DNA of 22,862 bases, from positions 1-22,862 of the IMG/VR virus record IMGVR_UViG_3300013094_003941. The stretch is one strand, 5' to 3'. Within the stretch, counting starts at the first letter, position 1. Each line of letters starts with the position of its first letter. This DNA comes from a virus. The notes beneath the pieces are model-generated. The model was not told the DNA's origin. It did no database searches and saw only the letters and a program-made list of their open reading frames with translations. Shown here in pieces: positions 8,096 to 22,748 of the stretch. The translations under genes were made by a program, and so were the position numbers.

Positions 8096-8102
8096 TTAGA
8101 TA

Positions 8103-8110
8103 TATTTATC
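8103..8110 (-). promoter_or_regulatory. T4-type late promoter (GATAAATA) of gp20
   Basis: The minus strand reads GATAAATA, one mismatch from the late consensus, with 7 nt between the box and the gp20 ATG at 8095. Spacing matches the box at gp22. Confidence 0.6.
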
Positions 8111-8158
8111 GTTGAGAGTTGTATTATAAACTAGCTTTTTGTAATAGCTACTATATAG

Positions 8159-9484
8159 TTAACTTATACTTGGACCGGATGCTACAAATGAATTTGACCC
8201 AACACACATTAAAGTACAAAAACCGTGTTGAGCTATTGTTCGATTACCAGTAGTAGCCGTACCATCCAGTGTTAAAGTAACACCAGATGCAGCTGATAAA
8301 GTTTGAGAGCTAGAAGTATTATTATAAATGTGTATTAAATTACCCGCGTTAAATGTAGATATCGGTATTGCTATTACTGTACCAGTAGATGTTAGGTTAA
8401 TAAGACTACCAGTATCAGTAACTTGCAGGGTGTAAGCAGCGTTTTTTGCGGAGTTAACAAATATACCAGCATTACCACTATAACCGGATATACCAGAATA
8501 ACCTGAAATACCTGCACCGGAATAACCACTATAACCTGAAATACCTACTGCTCCTTGATATATACCTGTCTGTACATTACTATAATATTGATTACCTAGA
8601 TAATAAAACCCAACTGTAGCAGGTAAGCTACTACCAGTACTTGCAAACACTCTGTATACTAATCTATCTGTATTAGAATTAAGAGCTATAGGGCTAGAAA
8701 TATTATACATTACTGATTGTAACAGAGGAGTACCAAACGGTGTAGGTGTTAATGCACTACCAGTAGCAGAAAATAATAATGTTTCTGTTCCGCCAGGATA
8801 CGTTCTGTCATAAACTGAATGAGTTAATGTTACAGCTGACGTAGCATTAACATTAGTACCAGAAAGGGCATAATAACAATTAAATGTCCATGTACCTTGA
8901 CTGATTAATGTTATATCAGGACTGTTTATTTGAGTAACTACCTGACCTAACGTTCCAAGTTGTTCGTTAGCACTTAAATTATACGGATAAGATGTAGAAG
9001 TACCTGTAGCTGGTGTTGTACTAAACAACCCGTAATATACACTAAACTCTGAAGCAGAAGACGTTGGGTATAGTGTTAAACCAACTGCTGGAGATCCAGA
9101 ATAACCAGAATAACCGCTAGAACCACTAATACCACTATAACCAGATATGCCAGAATAACCTGATGCTCCATTAGGACCTATTGAGCCTTGACCGGAGTAA
9201 CCACTATAACCAGAACCACTATAACCGCTTATACCACTGTAACCGGACCAACCAGAATATCCACTAAAACCTGATATACCAGAATAACCGCTTATACCAG
9301 AGTAACCAGACACGCCTGTGTTGCCTTGTGCGCCATTTCCACCAGTTGCTCCAGAATAACCAGAATAACCAGAAACACTTCCTGTATTAAATGCTGTAGT
9401 AACAGTAGCAAAATTATTATTAATAGTTACATAACTATTTGATATTAAATCTGTTGAAAGTATCGGGGTGTATGTAATAGCCAT
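8159..9484 (-). CDS. Collagen-like tail fibre / appendage protein
   Basis: Probably a trimeric surface fibre. After a 38-residue N-terminal segment, residues 39-131 are collagen-like triplets dominated by Gly-Tyr-Ser-Gly and Gly-Ile-Ser-Gly. A globular beta-rich region without clear family follows (about 132-312), then a second repeat block at 314-340. The C-terminal domain (341-441) has the beta-strand and asparagine pattern common at fibre tips (PISTFNAGNLIHIYNN, then SGVTLTLDG and TIAQHGFCTLMCVGSNSF). Collagen-like blocks in phage fibres form triple-helical stalks. The gene has a late promoter box CATAAATA inside the end of the next gene, and lies with the LamG-like and gp15-like genes. 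No Shine-Dalgarno sequence. The receptor is unknown. Confidence 0.8.
   Translation of the reverse strand: MAITYTPILSTDLISNSYVTINNNFATVTTAFNTGSVSGYSGYSGATGGNGAQGNTGVSGYSGISGYSGISGFSGYSGWSGYSGISGYSGSGYSGYSGQGSIGPNGASGYSGISGYSGISGSSGYSGYSGSPAVGLTLYPTSSASEFSVYYGLFSTTPATGTSTSYPYNLSANEQLGTLGQVVTQINSPDITLISQGTWTFNCYYALSGTNVNATSAVTLTHSVYDRTYPGGTETLLFSATGSALTPTPFGTPLLQSVMYNISSPIALNSNTDRLVYRVFASTGSSLPATVGFYYLGNQYYSNVQTGIYQGAVGISGYSGYSGAGISGYSGISGYSGNAGIFVNSAKNAAYTLQVTDTGSLINLTSTGTVIAIPISTFNAGNLIHIYNNTSSSQTLSAASGVTLTLDGTATTGNRTIAQHGFCTLMCVGSNSFVASGPSIS
8465..8545 (-). repeat. Second block of Gly-Tyr/Ile-Ser-Gly codon repeats
   Basis: This short block encodes residues 314-340 of the fibre (GISGYSGYSGAGISGYSGIS and onward), separating the middle globular region from the C-terminal tip domain. 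Confidence 0.8.
9092..9370 (-). repeat. Main block of collagen-like Gly-Tyr-Ser-Gly codon repeats
   Basis: The block encodes about 93 residues of Gly-X-Ser triplets (residues 39-131), interrupted by a Gly-Ala/Gly-Asn segment near 46-58 and by QGSIGPNGAS near 99-108. Plus-strand units such as CCAGAATAACC and CCACTATAACC recur irregularly. These are coding repeats and not a CRISPR array. Confidence 0.85.
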
Positions 9485-14277: not shown

Positions 14278-14877
14278 TTATGTAGTAAAATCAAAATTTA
14301 CAATACAACGTATATTTTTAGTTGGATCAGAGCTTGCATGGTACCTTTCGCCATTAAAAATTACAACCCGTCCTTTTTTAGGGGTAACACGGTTTAGTAC
14401 TTCAAACTTTGTATCTTTATATTTTTCCATATCTACATCTTTTAATGTTTTATCGAAAAAAAACGTATCTCCATCTGTATCGTTTACATAATATAAACAT
14501 ACCATATGAGGAGTGTGTAAATCAACATGTGGGTTATTATATTTTTGTGGGGTAGATTTAATTAAAGGAAAACTTATAAAACTACGCACATTCAATACTT
14601 CTTTTGGTGTAATGTTAATTTTTTTACAGCTTTTAAACAGTATTTTAATAACATTATCTAAAACTTCCTGGTACAATACATTTTTACTTGGGTTAAAAAT
14701 CTGCAACATAATAGCTGGTGTATACTTTGTTATAAGCCTTTTTTTATTATGTGTAGTAGGGTACGTAATGTCGTCTAGAAATTTCCAGCATATTTTAGTA
14801 TTAACTGTTAAGTAATTTTCAATATAATCTTGCTCTTCTATAGTTAGGAAATCATCAAATATATAAAAATCATTCAT
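14278..14877 (-). CDS. 2-oxoglutarate/Fe(II)-dependent oxygenase (prolyl-4-hydroxylase type)
   Basis: The 199-aa product carries the full iron and co-substrate set of the 2OG-Fe(II) family: His117 and Asp119 in NNPHVDLHTPHM, distal His180 in RYHASSD, and Arg190 (NIRCIVNFDF) for 2-oxoglutarate. GRVVIFNGERYHAS at 169-182 is typical of the P4H-like subfamily. It could hydroxylate protein residues, a nucleobase or another small substrate; the sequence does not tell which. Similar oxygenases are common in T4-like phages of open water. The ATG lies inside the end of the gp62 gene, and it has the best Shine-Dalgarno match in the window (AAGGGAG). Confidence 0.88.
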   Translation of the reverse strand: MNDFYIFDDFLTIEEQDYIENYLTVNTKICWKFLDDITYPTTHNKKRLITKYTPAIMLQIFNPSKNVLYQEVLDNVIKILFKSCKKINITPKEVLNVRSFISFPLIKSTPQKYNNPHVDLHTPHMVCLYYVNDTDGDTFFFDKTLKDVDMEKYKDTKFEVLNRVTPKKGRVVIFNGERYHASSDPTKNIRCIVNFDFTT

Positions 14878-15265
14878 TATTTTTATCTCCCTTAGGTAAT
14901 TTTAAATTAAATTGTTCCATATACTGATTTAGCTCTCTGCTTGATATTTCAAGAGATGTTGCGATTTTTAATACTGTTTCTTTGTCTTTACTGTTTTTAT
15001 TATCTTCTTTTTTCTTTTTTATATAGTTTACTCTCGAAAATTTATATTGTGGCAAGATACCATAAAGATATTTAAACCAGTGTTCTTTATCATTTAAAGA
15101 AGACCAAACCCGGTTACTTGTATTATTTACAAACGTTGCTGCTTCTGATGAATGCATAGAACACCAACGCTGAACCATATAAGGTTGAAACTCCGGATCT
15201 TCTTGTACGTTAGAAGAGTCCGGAGTCTTAGTTTTAAATAATATCTTATTTAAATAAGCAAACAT
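14870..15265 (-). CDS. 62: Clamp-loader small subunit gp62
   Basis: This subunit, with gp44, loads the sliding clamp onto DNA at the replication fork. The 131-aa product matches the N-terminal half of the T4 gp62 pattern: PYMVQRWCSMHSSEAATFVN, the spacer, LNDKEHWFKYLYGILPQ, and the following RFSR-like basic tail (KFSRVNYIKKKKED). T4 gp62 is 187 aa, so the second half is shorter or missing. The C-terminal residues form another helix with EISSRELNQYMEQFNL. The ATG overlaps the stop of the DUF366 gene by one base (TAATG), so translation is probably coupled. gp44 is not in the window. Confidence 0.82.
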   Translation of the reverse strand: MFAYLNKILFKTKTPDSSNVQEDPEFQPYMVQRWCSMHSSEAATFVNNTSNRVWSSLNDKEHWFKYLYGILPQYKFSRVNYIKKKKEDNKNSKDKETVLKIATSLEISSRELNQYMEQFNLKLPKGDKNNE

Positions 15266-15846
15266 TAAACAATTACTTTAGTAGTAGCTACAAAAATATT
15301 GTCTACCATAGAATAAAACGTATCAATAACATCATTCTGGAACTTTGTAGCTTGTTCAGGTGTTAAGTTAGTACTAAATGCAAATGCAGGTGCGTTCTTA
15401 CCAGCCGTAATGTTTACTCCTGTATGTCCAATGGCTATGTTTTCTTTAGAATATGTAATACTAACTGAAGCCTTACCTTTAGTTTGATGCACCCCACCTT
15501 GATTGTGTTCAGCGTGTATCATAATATCATCGCCCTTCATTTCGATGGGTTTGTTAATAGTTTTATGTAATATATTAGCAATTGCTGTATTAAATAGGCG
15601 CTGAAAACATACTGCACCAAATGGGTCTAGATTAGGAATTTCCCAACAAAAATTTACCATAGAATCACTATAGATATAGTCTTTCTCTAGAGAGTCTTCT
15701 AAATCAATAAGATTAATAGTTACTTCTACTGGGGCCACGAAAGAAACGATATTACCAATCGGTAGTACTTTATCTCTAAAGTACTTATAAGCAAAACGCT
15801 TGTGAATAAAATCGCCGTTATATATTTTCTGGTCTGTAATGATCAT
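15265..15846 (-). CDS. DUF366 family protein, possible partner of the queC-gat pair
   Basis: The 193-aa product follows the DUF366 (PF04017) pattern known from archaea and bacteria: MIITDQKIYNGDFIHKRFAY, the DLEDSLEKDYIYSDSM segment at about 48-63, the RLFNTAIANIL helix, GDDIMIH at about 104-110, and ASVSITYSKENIAIGHTGVN followed by AGKNAP. The biochemical function of the family is not known to me. Its location three genes downstream of queC and gat, on the same strand, makes a role in 7-deazaguanine metabolism a reasonable hypothesis, not an established fact. The start lies in an A/T-rich leader with no Shine-Dalgarno sequence. The stop overlaps the gp62 ATG. Confidence 0.72.
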   Translation of the reverse strand: MIITDQKIYNGDFIHKRFAYKYFRDKVLPIGNIVSFVAPVEVTINLIDLEDSLEKDYIYSDSMVNFCWEIPNLDPFGAVCFQRLFNTAIANILHKTINKPIEMKGDDIMIHAEHNQGGVHQTKGKASVSITYSKENIAIGHTGVNITAGKNAPAFAFSTNLTPEQATKFQNDVIDTFYSMVDNIFVATTKVIV

Positions 15847-15867: not shown

Positions 15868-16551
15868 TTAATATTCTCCACGGTTAAATTTATTTCTAAA
15901 CCAATCTTGTCCAGCTAACCATTCTTTTGTGTAAGTTCTTAATCCTGGAGATGCATGTATAGCATCAATATTATATGTGCCGAGTTTTAATTTAGCTTTA
16001 TTACATGTTAAACTAAAATCAATGTCATAAAAATGATATTTTGCGTCGCATGTTTCGTCAAACTTAACACCAGCGTTAAATATTTTTTTAGGGTTAAATG
16101 CAAGAAATAAACCATCTAATAGCAAAACTCTACCAGTTTTACCGAAGTGAGTTTTAAATGTTCTTTTATCCATATGATGACCTACCGTACCACTGTGAGT
16201 TTCTTTAGGGCACATAATATGCCATAAACATGGCTCTCTCACAACTGCATTACTTCCACCAGCTAAACCTACTACATTATATTTTTCAAGCGCTTGGTGA
16301 AGTTTATCTATCCAATTTTTATCAGTAATAACTACATCATCATGCATTAAAACAAGTATACAATCTTCATCTTTTTTATTGTTTAATAATCTATTGTATA
16401 CTTTTGCTATACTTTCTTTATTAGAGAAGTGAGGAAAAATATCTGTTACTTTATCTAGTTGAGCACTATTATAAACATTATACTCCCCTAAGCGTTTTTG
16501 TATATCTTGTGTAGATGCATCAGGAGAACAGAAACCAATATAAACGTTCAT
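15868..16551 (-). CDS. Glycosyltransferase of the GT2/StrF-like type
   Basis: The 227-aa product looks like a short GT-A glycosyltransferase (StrF-like, Glyco_tranf_2_5 type). MNVYIGFCSPD starts the fold, LVLMHDDVVI at 66-75 supplies the acidic metal-binding cluster, GLAGGSNAV follows, then LLLDGLFLAFN at 143-153 and YDIDFSL at 175-181 with the late IHASPG. It has no signal peptide or membrane segment. It is separate from the plus-strand glycosyltransferase cassette and lies between an 87-aa unknown and DUF366. Its ATG overlaps the previous stop (TAATG), so it is co-translated with the 87-aa gene. Acceptor unknown. Confidence 0.75.
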   Translation of the reverse strand: MNVYIGFCSPDASTQDIQKRLGEYNVYNSAQLDKVTDIFPHFSNKESIAKVYNRLLNNKKDEDCILVLMHDDVVITDKNWIDKLHQALEKYNVVGLAGGSNAVVREPCLWHIMCPKETHSGTVGHHMDKRTFKTHFGKTGRVLLLDGLFLAFNPKKIFNAGVKFDETCDAKYHFYDIDFSLTCNKAKLKLGTYNIDAIHASPGLRTYTKEWLAGQDWFRNKFNRGEY

Positions 16552-16814
16552 TAGTCAATAGTAAAATGTTCACGTGGTATGTTAGGGAAGTTTTCAGCTA
16601 ACATCTTAATCGTCTTATCATCATCGTAAGGGCCTTCATCAAAGAAGTATATATTATCGAGTTTAATGTCTTTATCGTTTAATTTATTAGCTAATTCCAA
16701 TATTACATGTTTATGTTTATTGGTCCATTCAGCACATACATCAACAGATGCACTAAATAATAATGCCTCAATTAATAATTGCTTTTCTTCTATAGTTAAC
16801 TGTATGCCCTTCAT
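16551..16814 (-). CDS. Small acidic protein of unknown function (87 aa)
   Basis: I do not recognise a family. The 87-aa product has an N-terminal helix (QLTIEEKQLLIEALLFSA), a second helix near HVILELANKLNDKDI and an acidic middle (FFDEGPYDDDKTIKM). It has no membrane segment. The stop codon shares bases with the next ATG (TAATG), tying it to the glycosyltransferase. It might be a small regulator or adaptor; nothing proves it. Confidence 0.65.
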   Translation of the reverse strand: MKGIQLTIEEKQLLIEALLFSASVDVCAEWTNKHKHVILELANKLNDKDIKLDNIYFFDEGPYDDDKTIKMLAENFPNIPREHFTID

Positions 16815-16851: not shown

Positions 16852-17220
16852 TTATTTTCCGAAAAAATGTACTGCAAGGTCTGTTAAGCTGCCGATTAAT
16901 GCAACCCATATAGCCGTCTGTAGATGCCAGTGTAGTTTCTGTTTTTCATTATGTTTAATTGCACAATTATTAAGCGTATTGTGTAGTTCTTCATAATGAG
17001 CTAACAGTAAATCCCTATTTTCATTAAATCTACCATCTATTTCTGCTCTTAAATGAGACATATCGTTCTGTAGAGTTGCAACTTGTTGCATTATACTCGG
17101 ATGTCCATTACCATCTCTAACAATCTTACTAATATTATGTAAATCTTCTTTTACGTTTACAATATCTCTGTTAATATAATCAATAGCGGTGTTTCTTTCA
17201 GGTGTTGTTCTTCTAGGCAT
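16852..17220 (-). CDS. Coiled-coil protein with a C-terminal membrane segment (122 aa)
   Basis: The product has a long coiled-coil-like helix from about residue 10 to 90 with heptad spacing (DIVNVKEDLHNISKIV, later QVATLQNDMSHLRAEIDGRF). A single hydrophobic segment follows near the C-terminus (TAIWVALIGSLTDLAVHFF, residues 102-120), with only two residues after it. This layout resembles XhlA- or spanin-like membrane-anchored helpers and some holins with a single membrane pass. No lysis genes are visible beside it, so a lysis role is only a suggestion. It follows gat with eight bases between stop and start; the box CTAAATA in that gap may be a late promoter, though it overlaps the gat stop codon. 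Confidence 0.65.
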   Translation of the reverse strand: MPRRTTPERNTAIDYINRDIVNVKEDLHNISKIVRDGNGHPSIMQQVATLQNDMSHLRAEIDGRFNENRDLLLAHYEELHNTLNNCAIKHNEKQKLHWHLQTAIWVALIGSLTDLAVHFFGK

Positions 17221-17228
17221 GCATATAT

Positions 17229-17867
17229 TTAGAATACAAAATACGGGGAATTGTATTTAAATTCTGCCACTGGTACTATACAATTATAATTGTTTATATC
17301 ATATATAGTGCCTTGCTTTAATGAAGTACTTCCCTCAAATTCAGTAGATGAAAAATCTCCATTGTCTACATTAGCAAACAACGTACTCGCATTACGTGCT
17401 ATATAAGTTTTTCTTTGTTTAATACTATACATCCATACAGCAAACGTGCCTTTAAGTTCTTCTAAAGCACTAGTAATTGTAGGTTTAATTTCAAGTAAAC
17501 GTGGTATAATACAACTATCCGTTTTACCTGTAAAGTTCTCTCCTGAAAAATATACTTCACAAAGTTCTTTAAAATTACTAATAATACCGTTATGAGACAC
17601 TATCCAATCTCCATAAAAGAAAGGATGATTGTTATTAATATCATAACTCGTGGTCTCAACAGTTGGTCCGCGAGAATGATAGAGGTAATATAGAGCTGGT
17701 TTATCGCAAACTGGTTCACTAAATTGACCTGATCGTTTATATGTAAGCCAGAATTGACTCTTTTCTTCAATAGCTATAGCGCCGGAACTATAGAACCCTC
17801 TATTTAAGTTACTTTGATATAACTTAAACGCTTTTTCTTTATTATTAGATCCTGCTATACCGCACAT
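17229..17867 (-). CDS. Class II glutamine amidotransferase domain protein (Gat), partner of QueC
   Basis: The 212-aa protein is a stand-alone Ntn-type glutaminase domain. The catalytic Cys2 follows the start Met (MCGIAGSN). Further family features are HSRGPT at about 64-69, the NHPFFYGDWIVSHNGIISNF segment at 79-98 and KTDSCIIPRLLE with the conserved Asp-Ser. Such domains hydrolyse glutamine and pass ammonia to a synthetase partner. The ATG lies three bases after the queC stop (TAA TAT ATG), so the two are co-translated. In some archaea and phages Gat is fused to a QueC-like domain and makes archaeosine or its DNA form from preQ0. Here the same pair appears as two genes. The family is secure; the pathway is inference. 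Confidence 0.85.
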   Translation of the reverse strand: MCGIAGSNNKEKAFKLYQSNLNRGFYSSGAIAIEEKSQFWLTYKRSGQFSEPVCDKPALYYLYHSRGPTVETTSYDINNNHPFFYGDWIVSHNGIISNFKELCEVYFSGENFTGKTDSCIIPRLLEIKPTITSALEELKGTFAVWMYSIKQRKTYIARNASTLFANVDNGDFSSTEFEGSTSLKQGTIYDINNYNCIVPVAEFKYNSPYFVF

Positions 17868-17870
17868 ATA

Positions 17871-18590
17871 TTAAAGGTAAGTTAATTCTTTACAGTTGTA
17901 TTGCGACCAAGGGATGTTCTTGGAGTATTTAATAGGATCAATAGCTTTATTATCAATAAAGCCTTTAATACGAGCTGCACAAGATACACACTCTCCGCAA
18001 GCCGGGTCAGTACCTTCATAACAAGTATGTGTTTGTCTAAAGTCTACTTGTAAGTTAATACCTTTCTCAATAACTTCTTTCTTTGAGTTAAACATAAACG
18101 GTGCATTTACCTTAACTGCAAACTTGCGGTTAAGACCGTATATGTTGTTTACTTTCTCTAAAAACATTGAAGTACAATCCCAATAACCACTAAAGTCATC
18201 TGTTTCTACAGCCCCGTAAAACAGATCTTCAGTACCTATACTTTCAGCCCAACCAGCAGCAGTAGTCAAAAGTAATAAATTCCTAAAAGGTACATAACTT
18301 AAAGGTTGAGCATTTCCAATATCTTCTCTAGCTTTAGGTATCTTTAGATTAGTATTAGTCAAAGCAGACATAGTAGATATATCCCTAAAGAAATCCATAT
18401 TAATAATCTTATGCTCTTTTACATTACAAGCATTAGCTTGAAACTTAGCACATTCAACTTCTCGAATAATCCGCTGGCCATAATTAAATGTAATTGCATA
18501 AATCTCATTGTAATTAAGGGTTTTAGCTACATGGTGTAGTAATACAGTACTATCCATTCCGCCTGATAATATAACAAGTGCTTTAGACAT
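17871..18590 (-). CDS. queC: 7-cyano-7-deazaguanine (preQ0) synthase QueC
   Basis: QueC converts 7-carboxy-7-deazaguanine and ammonia to preQ0 with ATP. The 239-aa product carries the PP-loop motif LSGGMDSTVLL at residues 8-18, the internal ITFNYGQR segment, and the zinc site of four cysteines at 190, 198, 201 and 204 (CYEG, then ACGECVSCAARIKGF). The central VPFRNLLLLTTAAGWAES is also typical. Length equals that of bacterial QueC (about 230 aa). Gat follows immediately. FolE, QueD, QueE and the base-exchange enzyme DpdA are not in the window; they may be elsewhere in the genome or supplied by the host. The gene is divergent from the plus-strand gene at 18650 across 59 bases. Confidence 0.94.
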   Translation of the reverse strand: MSKALVILSGGMDSTVLLHHVAKTLNYNEIYAITFNYGQRIIREVECAKFQANACNVKEHKIINMDFFRDISTMSALTNTNLKIPKAREDIGNAQPLSYVPFRNLLLLTTAAGWAESIGTEDLFYGAVETDDFSGYWDCTSMFLEKVNNIYGLNRKFAVKVNAPFMFNSKKEVIEKGINLQVDFRQTHTCYEGTDPACGECVSCAARIKGFIDNKAIDPIKYSKNIPWSQYNCKELTYL

Positions 18591-22055: not shown

Positions 22056-22748
22056 TCAACTCTTTTCGAATTGTTTTTTCAAAAATTCTTGCTGAATAAA
22101 ATCTCCTACTAGAGTATCGTTTTCCCCGTAGAACTCACCTTTATCGTTAATGTAAAGACTCATCATAGCTATACGTTCTTGACGACTACCAAAAATAGGT
22201 ATAAATGCAGGACAATCATCAGTTTCAAAGAATCTTGAACCGCCTTTTTCCCAAGCTTTGTAAATACCTTCAAATAAATGACCGATTTCAGAGCGGTAAA
22301 TAGGGTCAACGTCTCTATTAGGAGCTTCAGTTAGTGCAACATCATTTTCTTTACAAAATGGTAAATAAAAAATAATTGAGTAAAATTTTATTGACTCTCT
22401 AACAAGCTTTACTGTTTTGTCAATAAAAGCTTCATCAATATCTGATAAACCTTTTTCGTAAAGCCATAGAGAGTAAACTAAGTTATCAATAGGTGTACGA
22501 TCATAGATAATCTTCTTTTTACCTACATTAGACATAGCTTCATCAACTAGATGATTTAAAATAAGCTCTTGAGACTCTTTTGTACCGTTCTTATTTACAG
22601 GTAATTTTTTCTCTTTAATTAAATCCCTATAAGTCGATTTTGGGGTTGTAAAATCAGGCCACCGCTCTTTCATGTCTTGGATAAGAGTAGTTTTACCAAT
22701 ACACTGCGTGCCAATAACGCCGATTTTATTAAGTTTAGGAGAGCTCAT
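22056..22748 (-). CDS. P-loop nucleoside/nucleotide kinase-like ATPase (AAA_28/NadR-like)
   Basis: The 230-aa product begins with a P-loop GTQCIGKTT (residues 13-21, Walker A), preceded by KIGVIG, as in NadR-type and AAA_28 (PF13521) kinases. IIYDRTPIDNLVYSLWLYEK at about 79-98 is the kinase-type second strand with an Asp-Arg pair. Later FYLPFCKEND and DPIYRSEIGHLFEGIYKAW resemble the lid and substrate region. It might phosphorylate a nucleoside or nucleotide for phage DNA synthesis, fitting the neighbouring primase and thyX. The substrate is not readable. It precedes the 166-aa gene with 31 bases between. Confidence 0.72.
   Translation of the reverse strand: MSSPKLNKIGVIGTQCIGKTTLIQDMKERWPDFTTPKSTYRDLIKEKKLPVNKNGTKESQELILNHLVDEAMSNVGKKKIIYDRTPIDNLVYSLWLYEKGLSDIDEAFIDKTVKLVRESIKFYSIIFYLPFCKENDVALTEAPNRDVDPIYRSEIGHLFEGIYKAWEKGGSRFFETDDCPAFIPIFGSRQERIAMMSLYINDKGEFYGENDTLVGDFIQQEFLKKQFEKS

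Follow-up and report, generated by a model that had tools for sequence, protein, structure and literature searches.

A stand-alone glutaminase gene behind queC in a T4-like lake virus: a candidate two-subunit preQ0 synthase for phage DNA modification

The queC–gat pair and its conserved module

The sequence analysed here is a 22,862-base IMG/VR virus fragment from an uncultivated T4-like lake virus, and we refer to this whole stretch as the window. On its minus strand it carries queC (17871..18590), which encodes a predicted 7-cyano-7-deazaguanine (preQ0) synthase of 239 aa, and behind it gat (17229..17867), which encodes a stand-alone class II glutaminase of 212 aa. Exactly three bases lie between the stop codon of queC (TAA) and the ATG of gat. 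By family score the first protein classes as a canonical QueC: it reached 201 bits against Pfam QueC (PF06508; E 1.7e-59, cut-off 22) and 172 bits against NCBIfam TIGR00364 (cut-off 150). Aligned to E. coli QueC it retains the PP-loop and the residues Y35, R99, N100, Y131, K165 and Y189, and all four zinc cysteines are present. Y35, R99, Y131 and Y189 are essential in the E. coli enzyme (PMC13329287). The cysteines are spaced C(x)7C, like those of phage 9g, instead of C(x)8C; H39 is not conserved, and W stands in place of P132.

Gat scored 43 bits for GATase_6 and 39 bits for GATase_7, where the curated cut-offs are 27 and 25, and its other curated match is a weak one to the N-terminal part of GlmS. 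It carries Cys2, the Arg of HSRGPT, the HNG motif and the Asp of TDS, and the residues C2, R66, N93-G94 and D117 are invariant across the window and 56 related Gats. The initial annotation had described a complete QueC with PP-loop and four zinc cysteines and, three bases further on, a complete class II glutaminase with Cys2. With all family scores over their cut-offs, the residues kept and the spacing confirmed, both descriptions hold. Comparing the window to three related loci we detected strong purifying selection on both genes: for queC dN was 0.07-0.12 and dS 0.9-2.1, for gat dN was 0.26-0.29 and dS was about 2 or saturated. By dN against the same three loci, Gat evolves faster than QueC and than the DUF366 protein encoded further downstream.

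The pair opens a module of minus-strand genes. Directly after gat follows a gene for a 122 aa protein (p122; 16852..17220) that matches no family over the cut-off, then one for an 87 aa protein for which no family was found (p87; 16551..16814), a glycosyltransferase-like gene (15868..16551; PF13712, E 2.5e-14) and, as the last gene, DUF366 (15265..15846; PF04017), whose 193 aa product scored 72 bits against a cut-off of 29.9. Both p122 and p87 are present in related loci. Just downstream of the module lies a 2OG-Fe(II) oxygenase-like gene (phrog_61; 14278-14877, minus strand), the position of which varies among the related loci. The right edge of the window is formed by an AAA_28 or thymidylate-kinase-like gene (22056..22748, minus strand; PF13521, phrog_2107). 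Elsewhere in the window, 8159-9484 on the minus strand encodes a protein with many collagen-like SGYSG repeats, which is probably part of the virion or of a fibre; similar repeats occur in large proteins of the related contig G002.

We scanned viral contigs for this arrangement with two anchors. The DUF366-anchored scan retained the best 80 matches, which gave 80 related loci; the second scan was anchored on QueC and has many contigs in common with the first. Wherever the DUF366-anchored loci extend far enough, the gene order queC-gat-p122-p87-glycosyltransferase-DUF366 is kept. The distance between queC and gat was measured in 53 of these loci and lies between -26 and +20 nt in 51 of them and at 832 nt in the other two, so the pairing is not a matter of chance. 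In the QueC-anchored scan gat lies directly behind queC in all 40 loci with room for it, which supports the earlier proposal that Gat is coupled to QueC, and DUF366 is present in all 30 loci with enough flanking sequence. Identities between the window and the related contigs are about 76-89% for QueC, about 48-66% for Gat and 81-90% for DUF366, the last being a range that was selected for by keeping the best 80 matches. The dN values against the three loci rank the proteins in the same way, with DUF366 and QueC conserved above Gat.

Stand-alone and fused glutaminases

The queC–gat arrangement is recurrent: about 50 records of cultured phages, most of them T4-like, have it. A search with the nt-1 Gat is matched in 51 such records, which comprise the Vibrio phages of the KVP40/nt-1 group together with pf16 and 2.275.O. 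In the neighbourhoods that were read, a stand-alone gat lies directly behind queC as in the window, with pathway genes nearby. KVP40, pf16 and 2.275.O also carry QueF, as do the relatives of the window. There are several differences: the Gats of these phages are only 26-31% identical to that of the window, the transglycosylases of KVP40, nt-1 and pf16 are of the DpdA2 type, unlike in the window clade, and a DUF366 match occurs in none of the cultured phages with the split pair.

Most of the stand-alone Gats in cultured phages are annotated as 'hypothetical', among them those of nt-1 (ORF392; 8099-8707 of locus L086) and KVP40 (KVP40.0125; 5898-6506 of L197). In the parts of PMC6884629 on which we draw, the amidotransferase named for nt-1 is ArcS and not the stand-alone Gat gene. 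About 50 records of cultured phages, KVP40 and nt-1 among them, thus carry a split pair that is for the most part not annotated as such, which makes it testable in laboratory phages. Other labels in this group of records also need care. Three genes labelled 'GTP cyclohydrolase' are QueF: pf16 gp79 (L003 4283-5227) by Pfam, KVP40.0123 (L197 4218-5126) by its position and a cited similarity to Q46920, and gp202 of Flavobacterium phage immuto (L144 14007-14927) according to the record's own note. The Bacillus phage gene BSTP8_080 (L189 1501-2172) is annotated as a glutaminase/QueC fusion; its product of 223 aa lacks a glutaminase domain and begins with the PP-loop of QueC.

True fusions of Gat and QueC are found in phages 9g, Vid5, R7M and PSTCR7 and in some Archaea. 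They combine the same class II glutaminase and QueC PP-loop ATPase domains, and those of 9g and its relatives lie, as the window's pair probably does, in a phage 7-deazaguanine cluster. The initial annotation had called the pair a split version of this fusion. We rejected the idea that gat is a split-off piece of a fused protein for two reasons. The fused proteins consist of Gat followed by QueC, whereas the window has queC followed by gat, i.e. two genes in the reversed order, and in the Gat tree the split and fused Gats form separate groups (support 96/99, on long branches). A split version in the sense of a shared product is not supported either, given the QueF and the formyltransferase-fold protein in the relatives. 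QueF accompanies the stand-alone Gat in the window clade, KVP40, 1.081.O, 2.275.O and pf16, whereas no true QueF was found in the fused Gat-QueC phages checked, where weak matches to the QueF model fall in FolE. An exception is nt-1, which has the split pair with ArcS instead of QueF. The split pair would be a second way for phages to pair a glutaminase with QueC, mostly tied to a preQ1-type pathway and not to archaeosine.

Pathway genes in larger relatives and the proposed function

Within the 22.9 kb window the pathway genes are queC and gat, with the linked DUF366, only. We therefore read seven larger related contigs, several of which are fragments, for the other genes of the 7-deazaguanine pathway. 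QueE is encoded in all seven and QueF in six. A direct match for QueD was obtained in contigs G001 and G002 and weakly in G007, and homologues of the G002 protein are present in all others (7/7). FolE was found in three of the seven, the rest being fragments. The set of FolE, QueD, QueE and QueC is complete in G001, G002 and G005. In G002, queE and queD lie directly beyond the thymidylate-kinase-like gene that is the rightmost gene of the window, and in the window's phage they are thus expected just outside the fragment. From these relatives we infer that the phage itself carries queE, queD, folE, queF and a transglycosylase gene.

In a second cluster of the relatives, the gene for a protein of 268-269 aa is followed by a small ORF and by genes for a formyltransferase-fold protein, a kinase-like protein and QueF. 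Homologues of the 269 aa protein occur in all seven related contigs. It shares 48% identity with the annotated DNA guanine transglycosylase (DpdA) of immuto and, over 97% of its length, about 40% with proteins of the Campylobacter phages CP220, CP21 and F379. Through these annotated or reported phage proteins we class it as a putative homologue of DpdA-type DNA-guanine transglycosylases. Between it and QueF lies the formyltransferase-fold protein (PF00551; G002 60824-61402, G001 65985-66578), which could place a formyl group on the aminomethyl of preQ1 in DNA. In a 2023 paper on further 7-deazaguanines in phages this transglycosylase subfamily is reportedly named DpdA3 and a formyltransferase DpdN; the name fdPreQ1 reportedly belongs to the same work. 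The 7-deazaguanine cluster of immuto has the same order of transglycosylase, small ORF, formyltransferase, kinase-like protein and QueF. It differs from the window in its QueC, which is very divergent (294 aa) with no gat annotated beside it, and in having no DUF366 match. According to a report cited in PMC6884629, the DNA of Campylobacter phages is highly modified with dADG.

Other comparisons of the transglycosylase were less informative. DpdA1 and DpdA2 queries gave no match in the related contigs. As for a classical TGT, PF01702 produced a single match below the cut-off (13 bits) in 12 contigs, and this candidate was rejected; the match pointed to the transglycosylase homologue. Aligning this homologue to three phage DpdA sequences with hhalign yielded a probability of 3%, sequence searches of the PDB with it returned no match, and an AlphaFold model built from 5 sequences was unusable (pLDDT 37). 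The initial annotation had placed the pair in a phage 7-deazaguanine pathway. The relatives agree with this in encoding FolE, QueD, QueE, QueC, Gat and QueF. Of the genes it had named for a check, folE, queD and queE were found in the relatives, as was a homologue of annotated DpdA in 7/7; none of them lies within the 22.9 kb window.

In asparagine synthetase B a PP-loop ATPase adenylates a carboxylate and a class II glutaminase supplies the ammonia. As QueC adenylates 7-carboxy-7-deazaguanine and needs ammonia, QueC and Gat can be read as a machine of the same type spread over two genes. The likeness extends to the Cys2 of the glutaminase; asparagine synthetase B is a single polypeptide with another substrate, and we claim kinship for the domains alone. 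QueC works on free ammonia and Gat is not strictly required for preQ0.

From the genes and their order, conservation, catalytic residues and homologies we infer the following model, which as a whole we consider moderately probable. QueC and Gat would together form a glutamine-dependent preQ0 synthase of two subunits, in which Cys2 of Gat hydrolyses glutamine and the ammonia is passed to QueC. QueC would adenylate 7-carboxy-7-deazaguanine, made from GTP via the phage's FolE, QueD and QueE, and convert it to preQ0, which QueF probably reduces to preQ1. The DpdA-type transglycosylase would then swap guanine in the phage's own DNA for preQ1, and the inserted base would perhaps be formylated by the neighbouring formyltransferase-fold protein. 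DNA modified in this way would resist host restriction, and armour against bacterial restriction enzymes is most likely the use of such bases. Phage pf16 combines the split pair with QueF and a DpdA2 homologue, and enzymes whose sites contain G or C leave its DNA almost uncut (PMC5587285); this agrees with modified DNA and does not identify the base. According to PMC6884629, the QueF-carrying virus HVTV-1 has dPreQ1 in its DNA, and the DNA of nt-1 contains mainly dPreQ0 and a little dG+. With its split pair and ArcS in place of QueF, nt-1 counts against a preQ1-type model.

The initial annotation had left two roles for the ammonia from Gat, namely a supply to QueC or a later amidation leading to an archaeosine-like base. 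In the latter case Gat would convert preQ0, free or in DNA, to the formamidine of G+, as the fused Gat-QueC of 9g does. PMC6884629 reports that fused Gat-QueC together with DpdA yields dG+ in E. coli plasmid DNA, and the trace of dG+ in nt-1, a carrier of the split pair, points in the same direction, although it is attributed there to the ArcS of that phage. As QueF usually travels with the stand-alone Gat, the Gat groups are separate and the domain order is reversed, we regard archaeosine as an improbable product. Moreover, QueF and the formyltransferase-fold protein beside the relatives' transglycosylase make a preQ1-type base, perhaps formylated, more likely. The donor role of Gat for QueC is thus the part of the earlier proposal that we favour.

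It also seems unlikely that the pathway acts on the host instead, by raising preQ0 and preQ1 for queuosine in host tRNA and not for phage DNA. PreQ1 is a queuosine precursor, the window itself contains no transglycosylase, and the authors of the pf16 study suggested such a boost for their phage (PMC5587285), even though the same study found its DNA to be restriction-resistant. The DNA-guanine-transglycosylase homologue in 7/7 larger relatives, in one block with QueF and the formyltransferase-fold protein, argues for a DNA target. Very unlikely, finally, is a partnership of Gat with another product of the operon, be it DUF366, the glycosyltransferase or the kinase-like protein, with the place of gat behind queC reflecting co-transcription only: Gat evolves faster than QueC and DUF366 and several genes of unknown role separate gat from DUF366, but distant phages retain the queC-gat adjacency without DUF366 and these neighbours, and asparagine synthetase B likewise pairs a class II glutaminase with a PP-loop ATPase.

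DUF366 and its linkage to queC

The initial annotation of the pair made no mention of DUF366, the neighbour in the window that tells most. The linkage of the DUF366 and queC genes is strong and extends beyond phages. In two bacterial phyla searched, 41 cellular loci carry a true DUF366, and in 39 of them the gene sits immediately behind queC on the same strand; the two exceptions are from Vampirovibrio. In the 21 genomes checked, the DUF366-linked QueC is the only strong QueC match. The bacterial pair resembles the phage module in that DUF366 is linked to QueC, and differs in that DUF366 follows queC directly, whereas in the phages the two are separated by gat and three further genes. A further difference concerns QueC itself: the DUF366-linked cellular QueCs have F131 and N134 (F-x-D-N) in 39/39 cases, in contrast to the canonical Y131/C134 (Y-P-D-C) that the phage QueC keeps.

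The predicted model of DUF366 (pLDDT 81) was compared to known structures with Foldseek. The best match was 2ddz (TM 0.76), a Pyrococcus protein of unknown function, followed by many lipoate and biotin protein ligases, and the predicted fold is thus lipoate/biotin-ligase-like. The idea that DUF366 stands in for an absent enzyme of the pathway is not supported: among the 21 bacteria with DUF366, QueD is present in 21 and QueF in 18, and the phages have all known steps plus DUF366. QueE was seen with a phage query in 11 of the 21. We found no paper on DUF366 in the literature, and it is a probable and apparently undescribed partner of QueC. Whether it is an unnamed component of the 7-deazaguanine pathway, working with QueC in phages and in bacteria with a queuosine-type gene set, we judge to be evenly balanced. 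In such a role it might aid the acyl-adenylate/amide half-reaction or acylate the deazaguanine product. If so, the phage operon queC-gat-...-DUF366 would encode a preQ0 synthase of three components or a path towards a new DNA base. An orphan family is in any case tied to QueC by its place in the gene order of phages and of two bacterial groups, which suggests a pathway for it and offers a testable hypothesis.

One record among the DUF366 matches deserves a separate remark. MW495066.1 is deposited as 'Microcystis phage MaAM05' (locus L004). Its genes include those for SecF, GlyS, FabI and FliM, and a Vampirovibrio MAG carries an identical DUF366. On these grounds it looks like bacterial sequence and not a phage genome.
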